From positions 164,593 to 228,592 of the forward strand of contig PLNP01000055.1 in assembly GCA_003142815.1 (NCBI GenBank): DNA of 64,000 nt. The letters run 5' to 3'. Of the stretch, positions 58,078-64,000 are shown in pieces. Source of the DNA: Rhodanobacteraceae bacterium. Its GTDB lineage: Bacteria; Pseudomonadota; Gammaproteobacteria; Xanthomonadales; Rhodanobacteraceae. Every line of letters starts with the position of its first letter. Within the stretch, counting starts at the first letter, position 1. The notes under the pieces were generated by a model, which searched no databases, was not told where the DNA came from, and saw nothing but the letters and a program-made list of their open reading frames with translations. The translations under genes and the position numbers were made by a program.

Positions 58078-58593
58078 CTATCGTCGCGCCGGGTCGGTGT
58101 GCGCCGCAAGCTCGCGCATCATCCGCTTCAGTTCGCTCCAGAGTGCGCGCTTGGCTGGCACGTCGCCAGCAAGCGCCGGCAGTTCGGCGCTGACGACCCA
58201 GCCGATCTCGCGCTGGCGCTGCGCTGACAATAGCGCGCCTGCCGTGCGCGCCTGCCGACCGCCAAACATGACCAAGGCAGACGCCGCCGCAAGCGCCGCT
58301 TCGTCGTGCGCGGCGCCCTGCGCGCATGCAATACGCGCGAACTTCAGCGTCTGCACCACGTCCGTGACCAGCGCATTCGCGCTCGCCGACGCGGTATCGG
58401 CAAGCAGGACGACCGCAGCCTGCTCGGTCGGTGCCACTGCAACCGGTGCATCCGCATGCGCCCGTGATATGGGCTGCGCGGACGACGGCGCGGCTGCCGG
58501 TGCGGCCTGCGCTGCGCGCGCCGCGGCGACGCGCGGCACATACACGTCGATGCCCATCTCGGCCAATCGACGCAGATTCGCTTCATCCAGCAT
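58078..58593 (-). CDS. holD: Probable DNA polymerase III psi subunit (divergent HolD)
   Basis: Immediately upstream of rimI; N-terminal LRRLAEMGIDVYVPR and C-terminal SAELPALAGDVPAKRALWSELKR resemble E. coli HolD (QLQQLGITQWSLR; SPALTDLRANPTARAALWQQI). Confidence 0.65.
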   Translation of the reverse strand: MLDEANLRRLAEMGIDVYVPRVAAARAAQAAPAAAPSSAQPISRAHADAPVAVAPTEQAAVVLLADTASASANALVTDVVQTLKFARIACAQGAAHDEAALAAASALVMFGGRQARTAGALLSAQRQREIGWVVSAELPALAGDVPAKRALWSELKRMMRELAAHTDPARR

Positions 58594-59197
58594 TCGCGTT
58601 CGTCCCCCGTTTGCGCAGGTCGGCGTAGAACTGCGCGAAGATCGTGTCGAGTGCGGCGCCGTACGCATCGACCGTCGCTTTCAGGTCGGTGCCGCCGGCC
58701 GCAACTTCGGCGTGGTAATAGTCATCGAGCAGGAGCGTGCCGTCATGACGGTCGGCACGGAGTTTCAACGCGACGACCGCGTTGAAACCGCCCGCTCCAG
58801 TCGGCACCCGATCGAAGCGCAGGATGATGCCGCTGATCCGGATCGCGGACTGACTTGCCGGCAATTCGTCGGTGACCTCGGCCGAAGCGAGCGCCTCGCG
58901 CAACTGCGCGATCAAGCGTCGTTGCAGGATGCGGGTCGGCGGATCGGTCCATAGCTGATAGTGGTATTGGCGCAACTGCTGCGCGCCCGGATCGAGCGCG
59001 TAGATCAGGGGTTGGTCGCCATACAGACCATCTGCACCGAACGCGTCGACGACGATCGGATCGCGGAACAGCGGTGTCGCTGCCTGTTCCAGCGATTGCG
59101 CGCGCGGCAAGCGGAAATACGTGAAATCCGGAACAGTCGGCGCCCCGCAACCCGCGAACGCCGTCAACGCGATCAGGAGAATCCAGCGCAGGCTCAT
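58583..59197 (-). CDS. ABC-type transport auxiliary lipoprotein (PqiC-like)
   Basis: Lipobox LIALTAFAGC; ATG at 59197 overlapping the mlaD-like stop; GAPTVPDFTYFRLP... pattern. Confidence 0.8.
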   Translation of the reverse strand: MSLRWILLIALTAFAGCGAPTVPDFTYFRLPRAQSLEQAATPLFRDPIVVDAFGADGLYGDQPLIYALDPGAQQLRQYHYQLWTDPPTRILQRRLIAQLREALASAEVTDELPASQSAIRISGIILRFDRVPTGAGGFNAVVALKLRADRHDGTLLLDDYYHAEVAAGGTDLKATVDAYGAALDTIFAQFYADLRKRGTNANAG

Positions 59198-60120
59198 TGC
59201 GGTTCGTCCTCCAGTTTGTCGGCCTTCGGCGCGATGATCAGCCGGTTCGGGCTCTTGCGGATCTCGCGGCTGAACTCGTCGAGATTGAGGCTCGACGATT
59301 CGAGGTGATGCGTGATCACGTCCATGCGGCTCGACAGCGCTTCGAGCACACTGCTGAGATCCTGCGCCGAGCGGCGCACATCGGGCCGGTTCTCCTTCGC
59401 GATGCCGGCGAGGTCGGCGAGTGCTTGATCCAGTGTCTCGCGCGTCTTGCGCAGTTCCGTGCTGAGACCCTTCACCTGCCCCAGAATCGCGCCGACCGCA
59501 GCGCGGTTTTGTGGTTTCAGCACGTCGTTGAGCGCGTCCGACGCGCGATTCATGCGGTCGAGCAGGGCCCGCGTCTGGTCCATGATCAGCGGCGCGGACT
59601 TGTCGAGCGTGCCGGTGATCGAATCGACGCGCTGCGACAAGGTCTGGATCAATGGCGAGATCTGCGTGCGCGTGAGTTCGCTGACCTGGCTGGCCAGCTC
59701 GTTCATCGCGGCGAAGATATCGGCGCCTTCCTCGCCCTTGAGCTCGCCGCCAGGCTTCAGCATCTCGTGGCTCGCGCCCTCGCGGATGCCGATCGAGACA
59801 TCTGCGAGCAGCCCGCTCGACTGCAGCCGTGCCGGGCTGTCCTGCGGGATCGGCCAGTCGCGACGGATCGCGAGCGTGACCCTGTAGCGCGTGCCCTCGG
59901 CATTGCGCTCCGGCGTCACCTTGCCGACCTGGCCGATGCGATAACCTTGGTAAAACACCGGCGCGCCATAGCGCAGGCCCGTCACGTTGCGATAACGCAC
60001 GACATAATCGTCGCTCGCGACGCCGCGCCCGGTGATCAGCGCGAGCCCGATCAGCAGCAGCGCGAGCGCAGCGACGACGACGGCGCCGACCAGGACATAG
60101 TTGGTGGTATCGCGTTTCAA
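59194..60120 (-). CDS. mlaD: MCE/MlaD family substrate-binding protein
   Basis: N-terminal TM; MCE domain VRYRNVTGLRYGAPVFYQGYRIGQVGKVTPE; coiled-coil tail. Confidence 0.9.
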   Translation of the reverse strand: MKRDTTNYVLVGAVVVAALALLLIGLALITGRGVASDDYVVRYRNVTGLRYGAPVFYQGYRIGQVGKVTPERNAEGTRYRVTLAIRRDWPIPQDSPARLQSSGLLADVSIGIREGASHEMLKPGGELKGEEGADIFAAMNELASQVSELTRTQISPLIQTLSQRVDSITGTLDKSAPLIMDQTRALLDRMNRASDALNDVLKPQNRAAVGAILGQVKGLSTELRKTRETLDQALADLAGIAKENRPDVRRSAQDLSSVLEALSSRMDVITHHLESSSLNLDEFSREIRKSPNRLIIAPKADKLEDEPQ

Positions 60121-60152
60121 TGCATGCCCCTACGAGCCGCCAAACGTCAATT

Positions 60153-60231
60153 TCGTCGTTCCGGCGAAAGCCGGAACCCAGTGCCTCTCGCGACCAAGGC
60201 ACTCGGTCCCGGCTTTCGCCGGGACGACGAT
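60153..60231. repeat. Long inverted repeat between the mlaF-like and mlaD-like genes
   Basis: tcgtcgttccggcgaaagccggaacccagtgcc ... ggcactcggtcccggctttcgccgggacgacga. Confidence 0.95.
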
Positions 60232-60257
60232 ATATTCGAGTGTTTCATTAAACTCTA

Positions 60258-61058
60258 TCAGGCTTCTTCTTCGGTGAGTCGTTTGAGGTAAGCATCCGCA
60301 TCGACCAGCACCTCACGTGGACGGCGATTCAGCAGGTCCTGAATGCGCTGGTTATCGCTCGCGCGCACCGCCGCGACGGAACCCGTCATCAGGATCTCGC
60401 CCTGGTCGAGCACGGTGATGGTGTCGGCGATCTTGAACGCGCTCTCCAGTTCATGCGTAACCACGACGATGGTCATGCGCAGCGCGTCGCGCAGGCGCAG
60501 GATCAACTCGTCGAGCTCCGCGGACACGACCGGATCGAGCCCGGCCGAGGGTTCGTCGAAGAACAGCAGGCGCGGGTCCATCACGATGGCTCTTGCCAAC
60601 GCCGCGCGCTTGACCATGCCCCCGGAGAGCTGGCTCGGCATCAGGTCCTGGAAGCCGCCGAGGTTGACCACTTCGAGCTTGAGCCGGCTCATGATGCGGA
60701 TCGTCGACTCGTCCAAGGTCGTGTGTTCGCGCAACGGCAGCGCGACATTCTCGCCGACCGTCAGCGAGGTCAGCAGCGCGCCGCCCTGGAACGACACGCC
60801 GATGCGCTTGCGCACACCGAGCAGCTCGCGCTCGCTGGCGTTGGCAAGATCGATGCCGAACAGTTTGACGCTGCCACTGACCGGCCGCTGCAGGCCGAGC
60901 AGGTGACGAAAAAGTGTACTTTTCCCGGAGCCCGAGCCACCCATGATCACGCGGATCTCGCCGGGCTGCACCGAGAAATCGATCCCATGCAGCACACGCC
61001 GGCGGCCGTACCAGGCTTCGAGGTTTTCGACTTCGATCAGGGGCGCGGCGATATTCAT
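60258..61058 (-). CDS. mlaF: MlaF-like ABC transporter ATP-binding protein
   Basis: Walker A GGSGSGKSTLFRH, signature LSGGMVKRAALARAIV, Walker B LLFFDEPSAGLDP; ATG at 61058. Confidence 0.92.
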   Translation of the reverse strand: MNIAAPLIEVENLEAWYGRRRVLHGIDFSVQPGEIRVIMGGSGSGKSTLFRHLLGLQRPVSGSVKLFGIDLANASERELLGVRKRIGVSFQGGALLTSLTVGENVALPLREHTTLDESTIRIMSRLKLEVVNLGGFQDLMPSQLSGGMVKRAALARAIVMDPRLLFFDEPSAGLDPVVSAELDELILRLRDALRMTIVVVTHELESAFKIADTITVLDQGEILMTGSVAAVRASDNQRIQDLLNRRPREVLVDADAYLKRLTEEEA

Positions 61059-61077
61059 GGCCCAGCTCGATGGTCCT

Positions 61078-61161
61078 TCGTCGTCCCGGCGAAAGCCGGA
61101 ACCCAGCGTCTTTTCTCTCCGCAAGACAGGAACTGGGTCCCGGCTTTCGCCGGGATGACGA
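61078..61161. repeat. Long inverted repeat between the mlaE-like and mlaF-like genes
   Basis: tcgtcgtcccggcgaaagccggaacccag ... ctgggtcccggctttcgccgggatgacga; same family as 60153-60231. Confidence 0.95.
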
Positions 61162-61185
61162 GCAAGAAAGATGCAAGGGCTGGAT

Positions 61186-61983
61186 TCATCGGTTGAGGAA
61201 AAAGCTGAAAATCATGTCGACTACGATGATCCAGCAGATCGACAGCACCACCGAGCGCGTGGTCGCACGGCCGACGCCTTCCGCGCCACCGGTGACCGAG
61301 AAACCGGTGCTGACGCCGATCAGCGTGATCAGCAACGCGAACACGACGCTCTTGGCGAGACCCTGCCAGACGTCGCCCGGCGACAGCAGCGACAACGTCT
61401 GCAGCAGGTAGGCGGTCGGCGTCACGTTCAGCGCCGGCGCGCTGTACAACGCGGCGCCGAAGATCGCGACCGCGTTCGCGAAGATCGTCAGTGCCGGCAG
61501 CATGACCAGCATCGCGATCAAGGCCGGCGCGACGAGGTAGCGCACCGGATCGATGCCGATCACCGCGAGCGCGTCGACTTCCTGCGAGACACTCATCGAG
61601 CCGATCCGCGCGGCGAGCGCGGAGCCGGACCGGCCGGCGACGAGGATCGCGGTGATCAGCGCGCCGAATTCGCGGGTGACCGATTTCGCGACCGCGATCA
61701 CAACCTGCGATTGCGCGCCGAACTCGCTCAATGAGGCGATGAACTGGATGCCGAGCATCAGACCGACCGTGAAGCCGAGCAGCGCGACGATCGGCAACGC
61801 GTCCGCACCGATCTCACGCATCTGGCGGACCACCGCGGCGAGCCGCACGGGTTGGCCCACACGCCAACCGGCGACCGCGAAGTACGCAGCTTCGAACAGC
61901 AGCATCGCCGCGTAGCCGATGCCGCCGAGCGCGTCGATCGTCGCGTGGCCGACGCTCGCGAGCGGGCGCGCCAGCGCGTTCAT
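61186..61983 (-). CDS. mlaE: MlaE-like ABC transporter permease
   Basis: ALPIVALLGFTVGLMLGIQFIASLSEFGAQSQVVIAVAKSVTREFGALITAILVAGRSGSALAARIGSMSVSQEVDALAVIGIDPVRYLV. Confidence 0.93.
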   Translation of the reverse strand: MNALARPLASVGHATIDALGGIGYAAMLLFEAAYFAVAGWRVGQPVRLAAVVRQMREIGADALPIVALLGFTVGLMLGIQFIASLSEFGAQSQVVIAVAKSVTREFGALITAILVAGRSGSALAARIGSMSVSQEVDALAVIGIDPVRYLVAPALIAMLVMLPALTIFANAVAIFGAALYSAPALNVTPTAYLLQTLSLLSPGDVWQGLAKSVVFALLITLIGVSTGFSVTGGAEGVGRATTRSVVLSICWIIVVDMIFSFFLNR

Positions 61984-62324
61984 GCGACCGTGACAATCGC
62001 TTCGGGGGTGGCGACCAGCAGGAACACGCGGTCAAGTCGCGCGAGTTCAAGCACTGCGCGCACCGCGTCGCTGACCGCGACCAGCGCGAAGCGGCTGCCG
62101 CGTGTGCGCGCGCGCTGGAACCCTTCGACCAGGGCGGCGATACCGGACGAATCGATATAACTGACCTCGGACAGGTCGACGCCCACCGCGGTGTCGTGAT
62201 CGAGCGCGTCGAGCACGGCAAGACGCACGGCTTGCGACCATGAAAGATCCACTTCGCCGCTGAGGCGGACCAGTACATAGCCGTCGCGGATTTCGCTGGC
62301 CACGTCGTTTGCGTTGGCGTTCAT
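61980..62324 (-). CDS. STAS-domain protein (anti-sigma-factor-antagonist type)
   Basis: VRLSGEVDLSWSQAVR...GVDLSEVSYIDSSGIAALVEGFQRA; ATGA overlaps with both neighbours. Confidence 0.9.
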   Translation of the reverse strand: MNANANDVASEIRDGYVLVRLSGEVDLSWSQAVRLAVLDALDHDTAVGVDLSEVSYIDSSGIAALVEGFQRARTRGSRFALVAVSDAVRAVLELARLDRVFLLVATPEAIVTVA

Positions 62325-64000
62325 GCTTCGCTTGCCTCTTCGCTGCCGATGCCATCAATACGTTTGCGCAAAATGAGTAGGTTGCCCTGGCCGCCCTGCG
62401 CGGGTTGGATGCGCCAGTCGTCCATGACCTCGTCGATCAGTGCGATGCCGAAACCGCCGGAACGGCACTCGCCGAGCGGTTTTGGGCGGATGCTGGCTGG
62501 ATCGACGCAAGGCGCGGCGTCGGTCAGTTCGAAACTCAACACCGGGCCGTCGCGCAGGATGCGCAAGCCGATGTCGCCTTCGTGATGCGGGCCGTAACCG
62601 TGGCGGATGATGTTCGCACAGGCCTCGTCGACCGCAAGCACGAGGCGGTCGCGCAATTCAGGTTCGACGGCGAGGATGTCCAGCGCCTGCCGGATCGCGC
62701 TGCGCACGCTGCGCAGTTCCGCGGCTTGCGCAGCGAAGCGGCGCTCGAGCAGCACCTCGGGCATCTGTGCACGCGGCGCTTCGACGATCAGCAAGGTGGT
62801 GTCGTCGACGAGGCGCAGGCGCTTCAAATCCGTGAGCAGGCCGCGCAGGCGCGCGTCTGGCGACGCGGCCGCATGGCGCACGATCAGTTTGCGCACACCG
62901 GCGTTGTCGATCGGCCTGCCGGCGCCGTCGCGTACGTCGGTGGCGCCATCGGAGAACGCGTACAGCGTGCCGCCGTCGAGCGCGATGTCGACTTCATCGA
63001 ACACGATGCCGGCGAGGATGCCAAGCGGCGGCCCGCCGGACGCGTAATCGGTGAACTCGCCGGCACGCTGCACGATGACCGGCGGAAAACCAGCGCCGGC
63101 GAACTGCACGCGCTGCGCGGCGTGATCGCAGTAGCCGACAATCGCGCAGACGAAGCGGCCATCCTGGGTCGTTTCGCAGAGCTCGTCATTCGCGCGCGCA
63201 AGCCACGCGGCCGGCGCGACGCCGTCCTTGCCGGCCCAGCGCAAGAGGCTCGCCGCGCGCACCATCAGCAGCGCCGCGTCGAGACCCTTGCCGGAAATAT
63301 CACCGACGACGAAGCCGATGCGGCCGTCGGCGAGGTCGAAGTAATCGTAGAAGTCGCCGGAGATCTCGTGCGCCGGGTGGTTCACGGCGACGATCGGGAA
63401 ATGGTCGCGGCGGCGTTTCGGCAGCAGCGACTTCTGCAGCCGCCGCGCGAGGTCGAGCTCGCGCTTCAAACGCTGCTGTTCGAGCAGGTCGCCGGCCATG
63501 CGCGCATTGTTGATCGCGAGTGCGGCCGGCGCCGCGATGAGGCGCAACCGTTCCGCATCGGCCGCCGTGAACGGTGCGCCGTCGCGGCGGTTGATGATCT
63601 CGATCGCGCCGATGGGACCTTCCGCTGTCGCGAGCGGTGCGCAGACGAGGCTCCTCGTGACGAAGCCGGACTCGTCATCGGCGGCACGCCAGATGCGGGA
63701 GTCGTTGGCCGCATCGACCACGATCTGGGCCCTGTTCTCGGCGACCGCGGTGCCAACCACGCCCTGCCCTACGCCAAGTCGCGTACCGGTGATGTCGGCC
63801 GGGCCGACGCAGATCCGACATTCGAGCACCTGCGTCGCCGGGTCGAGCAGGAATAGCGAGGCCGCTTCGACCTGCATGAAGTCGGCGACGCGGTTGACGG
63901 TTTCCGACAGGGTCTGGCCGAGGTCCAGCGAGACCGCGAGTGCCTGCGAAAGATCGGCAAAAAATGCGAGCGTTGCCGCCTCACGTGTTCGCCGCGGCGC
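62321..64000 (-). CDS. GAF + PP2C/SpoIIE phosphatase + RsbW-like HATPase protein (5' end beyond window)
   Basis: GAF-like N-region; SpoIIE motifs HEISGDFYDYFDLADGRIGFVVGDISGKGLDAALLM; C-terminal ATPase LAVDEACANIIRHGYG and GGFGIALIDEVMD. Frame stays open to the window edge upstream of the in-window ATG at 63877. Confidence 0.88.
   Translation of the reverse strand, partial: APRRTREAATLAFFADLSQALAVSLDLGQTLSETVNRVADFMQVEAASLFLLDPATQVLECRICVGPADITGTRLGVGQGVVGTAVAENRAQIVVDAANDSRIWRAADDESGFVTRSLVCAPLATAEGPIGAIEIINRRDGAPFTAADAERLRLIAAPAALAINNARMAGDLLEQQRLKRELDLARRLQKSLLPKRRRDHFPIVAVNHPAHEISGDFYDYFDLADGRIGFVVGDISGKGLDAALLMVRAASLLRWAGKDGVAPAAWLARANDELCETTQDGRFVCAIVGYCDHAAQRVQFAGAGFPPVIVQRAGEFTDYASGGPPLGILAGIVFDEVDIALDGGTLYAFSDGATDVRDGAGRPIDNAGVRKLIVRHAAASPDARLRGLLTDLKRLRLVDDTTLLIVEAPRAQMPEVLLERRFAAQAAELRSVRSAIRQALDILAVEPELRDRLVLAVDEACANIIRHGYGPHHEGDIGLRILRDGPVLSFELTDAAPCVDPASIRPKPLGECRSGGFGIALIDEVMDDWRIQPAQGGQGNLLILRKRIDGIGSEEASEA

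Follow-up and report, generated by a model that had tools for sequence, protein, structure and literature searches.

Near the end of a 64,000-nucleotide stretch of the genome of a Rhodanobacteraceae bacterium (the window; contig C26:164593–228592), we found a minus-strand operon that joins the genes of a partner-switching module to those of an ATP-binding cassette (ABC) lipid transporter, in the order pssA – GAF/PP2C/HATPase – STAS – mlaE – mlaF – mlaD – PqiC-like lipoprotein (Table 1). We consider it likely that the output of this module is the transporter, which resembles the Mla-Pqi chimeric (Mpc) system in its composition, and not a sigma factor. The gene content, the conserved linkage of the genes, the intact catalytic and acceptor residues of the module and a conserved docking motif in MlaF are direct observations. 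The source genome (3.22 Mb, 99.99% complete) has Dokdonella and other Rhodanobacteraceae as its nearest named relatives.

Scanning 84,980 species genomes for the STAS protein yielded 65 loci, mostly from Lysobacterales and including two Rhodospirillales contigs. Most of these loci preserve the whole order from pssA to the lipoprotein gene, and in all of them STAS is followed by mlaE. Because this set had been chosen through STAS, we drew a second sample irrespective of the module, comprising 185 Gammaproteobacteria, for the most part a single genome from each family. In 33 of these genomes, the profile of the MlaF subfamily that accompanies the module scored 337–493 bits (canonical MlaFs reach 208–264 bits when a narrower model of that subfamily is used). 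The profile of the STAS subfamily matched 31 genomes from 27 families, all of them among those 33, and none of the other 152; the Fisher P value of 3e-33 is nominal and indicative only, because the genomes are related by descent and the same 185 supplied some of the seed sequences. The STAS gene lies directly before mlaE or mlaF in 28 of the 31 genomes, spanning 25 families. A kinase gene or domain, fused or split, stands immediately upstream of STAS wherever the contig shows that region, and the phosphatase is upstream of the kinase in nearly all cases (G005 and G164 are exceptions, and in G093 it is on the opposite strand). An earlier, sequence-only reading of the window had tied a dedicated kinase, phosphatase and STAS protein to the MCE transporter, and had set a lack of neighbourhood conservation in advance as a reason to give up that link. 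Both the co-occurrence (31 of 33 versus 0 of 152 genomes) and the adjacency support it. Given that the same order is found in nearly all of the 65 loci and across Gammaproteobacteria, a chance arrangement is excluded.

The transporter genes that accompany the module vary in their order. Most loci run E-F-D-lipoprotein and three run F-E-D (L086, L159 and L174). In L150/L151, mlaF alone follows the module and mlaE-D-A-C lies at another locus (L088/L089); in L084, and partly in L085, mlaE-D-A-C follows the module and mlaF is nearby on the opposite strand (mlaA and mlaC were assigned by reading open reading frames, not by profile). The STAS profile detected no MlaB-like gene beside mlaC in loci of the mlaE-D-A-C type (L084–L086 and L088–L092), and it did find one in three canonical loci (L095, L098 and L101); the module STAS may therefore replace MlaB in the former. 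Beyond Gammaproteobacteria, the module is present in the two Rhodospirillales contigs and in further genomes. Phylum-wide STAS matches were dominated by a family (f194) of weaker STAS/HATPase pairs, mostly without transporter genes nearby, and were not counted. One f194 pair (L160, in genome G392) has MlaE-like (57 bits) and MlaD-like (25 bits) matches at a distance of around 1.2 kb, and is possibly an independent instance of a STAS/kinase–transporter pairing. Separately, four Lysobacterales loci (L024, L027, L040 and L049) run from pssA through GAF/PP2C/HATPase and STAS to mlaE, after which no mlaF or mlaD was detected. In two loci of genomes G036 and G099 (L087 and L181), the module and mlaE-F-D-lipoprotein are followed by a second mlaE–mlaD pair, and one MlaF and one STAS protein may serve two permeases there.

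The kinase and the phosphatase are intact at the level of their catalytic motifs, which supports the sequence-only reading. The metal-binding Asp motifs of the PP2C domain are invariant in 64 of 64 relatives, and the N (E..N...H), G1 (D-x-A) and G2 (GG-[LF]-G) boxes of the HATPase domain are kept in 57 of 57, the G1 box of the module kinase being D-x-A and not D-x-G. Among known folds, the window protein is matched best by the RsbU–RsbW part of Rv1364c (PDB 3ke6). Its structural model was built from 16 sequences and reached a predicted local distance difference test (pLDDT) score of 82.5 and a predicted template modelling (pTM) score of 0.49, which makes the modelled domain arrangement unreliable.

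Two properties of this protein proved less general than had been proposed. The GAF domain, put forward as the sensor, is present in the window protein, but HDOD takes its place in all eight phosphatases checked in other families, ruling out GAF as the general sensor of the module. Such a difference is expected from the modular exchange of sensors among PPM phosphatases, which are controlled through helical linkers (PMC12143880). Among GAF folds, the nearest match to the window protein has cAMP bound. Likewise, both activities do reside on one polypeptide here, but this fusion is neither novel (SypE, HsbR and Rv1364c are precedents) nor essential: the HATPase domain could not be aligned within the phosphatase reading frame in seven Lysobacterales loci, in the two of these that were inspected (L012 and L048) it is a separate overlapping gene, and it is also a separate gene in most non-Lysobacterales families. 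Two kinase–STAS–mlaEFD operons (L172 in G005 and L190 in G164) have no PP2C gene in the stretch read, and their phosphatase may be encoded elsewhere. The source genome contains a second strong SpoIIE phosphatase match (C20:10334–10897), which has an in-frame TAG.

The substrate of such a pair would be the STAS protein, whose DSSGI sequence had been recognized as a phospho-acceptor context. We confirmed this motif: DSSG is invariant in one set of relatives (66 of 66) and present in 98 of 100 in a larger set, in which the other two look like pattern misplacements. Conserved residues fall mostly in helices 1–3 and around the acceptor, also in independently found relatives, although part of this conservation is expected from the scan patterns used. 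The AlphaFold model of the protein (pLDDT 90) has SpoIIAA and RsbV as its nearest folds and retains a fifth strand and a terminal helix that are absent from the MlaB structure (PMC7367683). With the NCBIfam mlaB_1 equivalog model, the module STAS scores 29.7 bits against a cut-off of 90. The predicted acceptor Ser59 aligns with Thr52 of Escherichia coli MlaB, a residue within the contact surface with MlaF; the T52E substitution impairs MlaF binding (PMC7367683).

On the transporter side, an MlaE-type permease with an MlaF-type ATPase was confirmed, with MlaF chains among the PDB matches. In E. coli, Tyr261, Leu265 and Leu266 of the MlaF C-terminal extension pack between MlaB and MlaF (PMC7367683). 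The window MlaF, around 40% identical to that of E. coli, carries an equivalent motif, which was matched by pattern, as automatic alignment sets the E. coli Tyr one column off. A Tyr-x3-hydrophobic sequence near the C terminus occurs in 90 of 90 complete module-linked MlaFs and in 7 of 9 MlaFs from canonical loci without the module, compared with just 1 of the 19 MlaFs beside STAS-fused permeases (P values of 1e-19 and 2e-4). Judging from these sequences, the motif appears to track a free-standing STAS subunit, a comparison that is confounded because the fused systems form a separate clade.

We propose a model in which the STAS protein would serve as a free-standing MlaB equivalent of the MlaF dimer. 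In its unphosphorylated form it would bind the helical subdomain and the C-terminal extension of MlaF, permitting ATPase activity and transport of a presumed lipid cargo by a transporter in which the long MlaD would form a needle and the PqiC-type lipoprotein would sit in the outer membrane. Phosphorylation of Ser59 by the RsbW-type domain would release STAS from MlaF and stop transport, and the PP2C domain, driven through its helical linker by the GAF (elsewhere HDOD) sensor in response to a putative signal, would reverse that phosphorylation. A switch that is on when dephosphorylated is moderately favoured over the reverse. The recurrent pairing of kinase, STAS and transporter suggests a built-in on/off switch for membrane lipid movement.

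Several observations weigh against such a switch. The module and the transporter are unlinked in three genomes from two families (G043, G184 and G119), and genome G066 carries the module MlaF subfamily without the module STAS (its MlaF has Phe in place of the motif Tyr). A few kinases depart from the N-box, with 3 of 98 failing the strict pattern. The STAS protein is closer to SpoIIAA and RsbV (TM-scores of 0.81–0.84) than to MlaB (0.56–0.64), and the same holds by sequence. STAS domains fused to MlaE mostly carry Ser or Thr at the acceptor site too, which rules out conservation of the serine alone as proof of phosphorylation. Finally, the T52A mutant of E. coli MlaB keeps MlaF binding and abolishes ATPase activity (PMC5016091), so the switch may involve more than binding alone.

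Some of these points would fit an ordinary partner switch that merely shares the transporter promoter and is aimed at some regulator outside the operon (a sigma factor or a cyclase, for example): both sequence and fold place the STAS protein with the anti-sigma antagonists, and the three unlinked genomes are as such a target would have it. We regard this as unlikely. Among the 185 genomes, the STAS subfamily never occurs without the module MlaF subfamily, and its adjacency to the transporter persists through changes of gene order and locus. An external sigma target also has little room, because the source genome encodes just one PF01740 STAS protein (the STAS_2 protein that it also has belongs to the canonical mla locus on contig C8) and one strong RsbW-type ATPase, and no sigma factor of the SigB/F/G type scores above the cut-off anywhere in it. 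No sigma factor gene was seen in the operon, and none was noticed in the module loci examined, on which no sigma-factor model was run.

We give still less credence to a constitutive, MlaB-like structural role for the STAS protein, in which Ser59 would serve an unregulated structural or catalytic function and the kinase/phosphatase would act elsewhere or only tune assembly. The Ser or Thr of the MlaE-fused domains and the MlaB T52A phenotype, which arises without phosphorylation being known, are both consistent with it. However, almost every locus keeps the kinase and phosphatase genes, their active sites conserved, immediately ahead of STAS, and virtually every module STAS protein has Ser at the acceptor position, whereas the fused domains show a mixture of Ser, Thr, Ala and Phe. 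It is very improbable that the switch acts on lipid synthesis, with phosphatidylserine synthase (PssA) as the STAS target. In the window operon pssA overlaps the kinase/phosphatase gene by ATGA, and it stands ahead of the module in nearly every Lysobacterales locus whose upstream sequence is long enough, a recurrence that ties a phospholipid synthesis gene to the operon; it also adjoins the kinase gene in G005. However, pssA was undetected beside the module in both Rhodospirillales loci and in the majority of the other families, where mlaE and mlaF are present, and PssA as the target fits only Lysobacterales and G005.

Several known systems share parts of the operon. Like E. coli MlaFEDB (PMC7367683, PMC5016091), the operon encodes MlaE, MlaF, an MCE protein and a free STAS subunit, with Ser59 aligned to MlaB Thr52 and the MlaF C-terminal Tyr-x3-Leu in common. 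Unlike MlaFEDB, its STAS protein is SpoIIAA-type, with the additional strand and C-terminal helix, and has a dedicated kinase/phosphatase. The short MlaD and the operonic MlaC and MlaA of canonical Mla are also missing: a long MlaD of 308 amino acids (aa) is followed by the PqiC-like lipoprotein, although in relatives such as L084 the module does adjoin genes read as mlaE-D-A-C. Brucella Mpc (PMC12436622) shares the MlaE-like and MlaF-like subunits, a long MlaD (331 aa in Brucella), a PqiC-like lipoprotein as the last gene and the absence of MlaC from the operon. By contrast, the Brucella STAS domain is fused to the permease in a four-gene operon, whereas here STAS is a separate gene with the kinase/phosphatase upstream. 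By its sequence, then, the transporter is Mpc-like in composition but with a separate STAS gene. The switch half shares its GHKL kinase, PP2C phosphatase and STAS substrate with a DS[S/T]G acceptor with SpoIIAB/SpoIIAA/SpoIIE and RsbW/RsbV/RsbU; unlike in those systems, its genomic partner is an ABC transporter ATPase and no sigma factor was seen in the loci. SypE (PMC3610818), HsbR (PMC6482189) and Rv1364c (PDB 3ke6) similarly combine PP2C and RsbW-like domains in one STAS-controlling protein, but they carry receiver or PAS domains in place of GAF, and their outputs are biofilm regulation, sigma factors or a diguanylate cyclase. In SiaABCD (PMC7647112), the STAS-like SiaC is balanced by a phosphatase/kinase pair, and this partner switch, together with the diguanylate cyclase SiaD, controls biofilm; its output is a diguanylate cyclase, and no transporter is involved.

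The layout of the operon largely agreed with the sequence-only reading. Its GAF, PP2C, RsbW-like ATPase, STAS, MlaE, MlaF, MlaD and lipoprotein calls were each borne out by Pfam or NCBIfam, and its ATGA overlaps at the phosphatase/STAS, STAS/MlaE and MlaD/lipoprotein junctions are where it had placed them; the pssA/GAF-PP2C-HATPase junction is a fourth. The interval it gave (59194–64000) was too narrow, as the kinase/phosphatase gene starts at 64069, past the window, and the lipoprotein gene ends at 58583. Gaps proper occur only at mlaE/mlaF and mlaF/mlaD. Both contain copies of a palindromic repeat, CCCGGCGAAAGCCGGG (at most one mismatch; 60208–60223, 61085–61100 and 61139–61154), which within the window is confined to these two gaps and looks like a repetitive extragenic palindromic (REP) element. 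The start of mlaF is most likely the ATG at 61058 rather than 61124, because the added N terminus would read through this repeat. The source genome has two further MCE systems: one on contig C12 (L093), with a STAS-fused MlaE, MlaF, MlaD and a PqiC-like lipoprotein, is of the Brucella Mpc type, and the other, on contig C8 (L094), is a canonical mla locus that includes an MlaB-type (STAS_2) gene.

Table 1. Features of the operon, in window coordinates.
Feature	Position	Strand	Basis
PqiC-like (ABC_trans_aux) lipoprotein, 204 aa	58583..59197	-	Pfam 1.6e-12
MlaD/MCE protein, 308 aa, TTG start, long C-terminal part	59194..60120	-	Pfam 1.5e-12
MlaF-family ATPase, 266 aa, subfamily co-occurring with module STAS	60258..61058	-	Pfam ABC ATPase; NCBIfam MlaF-like
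MlaF C-terminal extension motif Y257-x3-L261	60276..60290	-	equivalent to E. coli MlaF Tyr261/Leu265 contacting MlaB
MlaE-family permease, 265 aa, without fused STAS domain	61186..61983	-	Pfam MlaE 3.7e-70
STAS protein, 114 aa, SpoIIAA/RsbV type	61980..62324	-	Pfam STAS 2.7e-18
DSSGI motif; predicted phospho-acceptor Ser59 at 62148-62150	62139..62153	-	aligned with E. coli MlaB Thr52
GAF-PP2C(SpoIIE)-HATPase(RsbW-like) protein, 582 aa	62321-64069 (window holds 62321..64000)	-	Pfam
RsbW-type HATPase (serine kinase) domain	62363..62737	-	Pfam HATPase_c_2 2.2e-23
SpoIIE/RsbU-type PP2C phosphatase domain	62780..63328	-	Pfam SpoIIE 1.9e-36
47-residue helix joining GAF to PP2C, putative signalling linker	63425..63565	-	predicted helix 146-192
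GAF domain (putative sensor)	63512..63925	-	Pfam 4.6e-13, residues 26-163; GAF structures among best PDB fold matches
pssA (phosphatidylserine synthase)	64066-64866, beyond window edge (L004 8659-9459)	-	

Both E. coli MlaB papers propose that MlaB may be phosphoregulated, but neither demonstrates the phosphorylation or names a kinase (PMC5016091, PMC7367683), and the control of active MlaB has been called an open question (PMC7367683). We found no prior description, in the open-licence PMC literature, of a partner-switching kinase/phosphatase attached to an MCE transporter; the transporter half and the switch half are each known, and their coupling is new as far as we searched. Taken together, we lean towards the view that these loci represent a class of MCE/Mla-type ABC transporters that is widespread, has not been described before, reaches beyond Gammaproteobacteria into at least one more proteobacterial class and would be gated by a partner-switching kinase/phosphatase of its own, with an MlaB-equivalent STAS protein as the substrate; in G036 and G099, the switch may also split the ATPase between two lipid pathways. 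With kinase, phosphatase and substrate encoded beside the transporter in many lineages, the question of MlaB phosphoregulation becomes testable in a purified system and a tractable host. If the proposal is true, partner switching would extend from transcription and cyclic di-GMP enzymes to an ABC transporter, and inter-membrane lipid traffic would be switchable post-translationally by a cytoplasmic signal.

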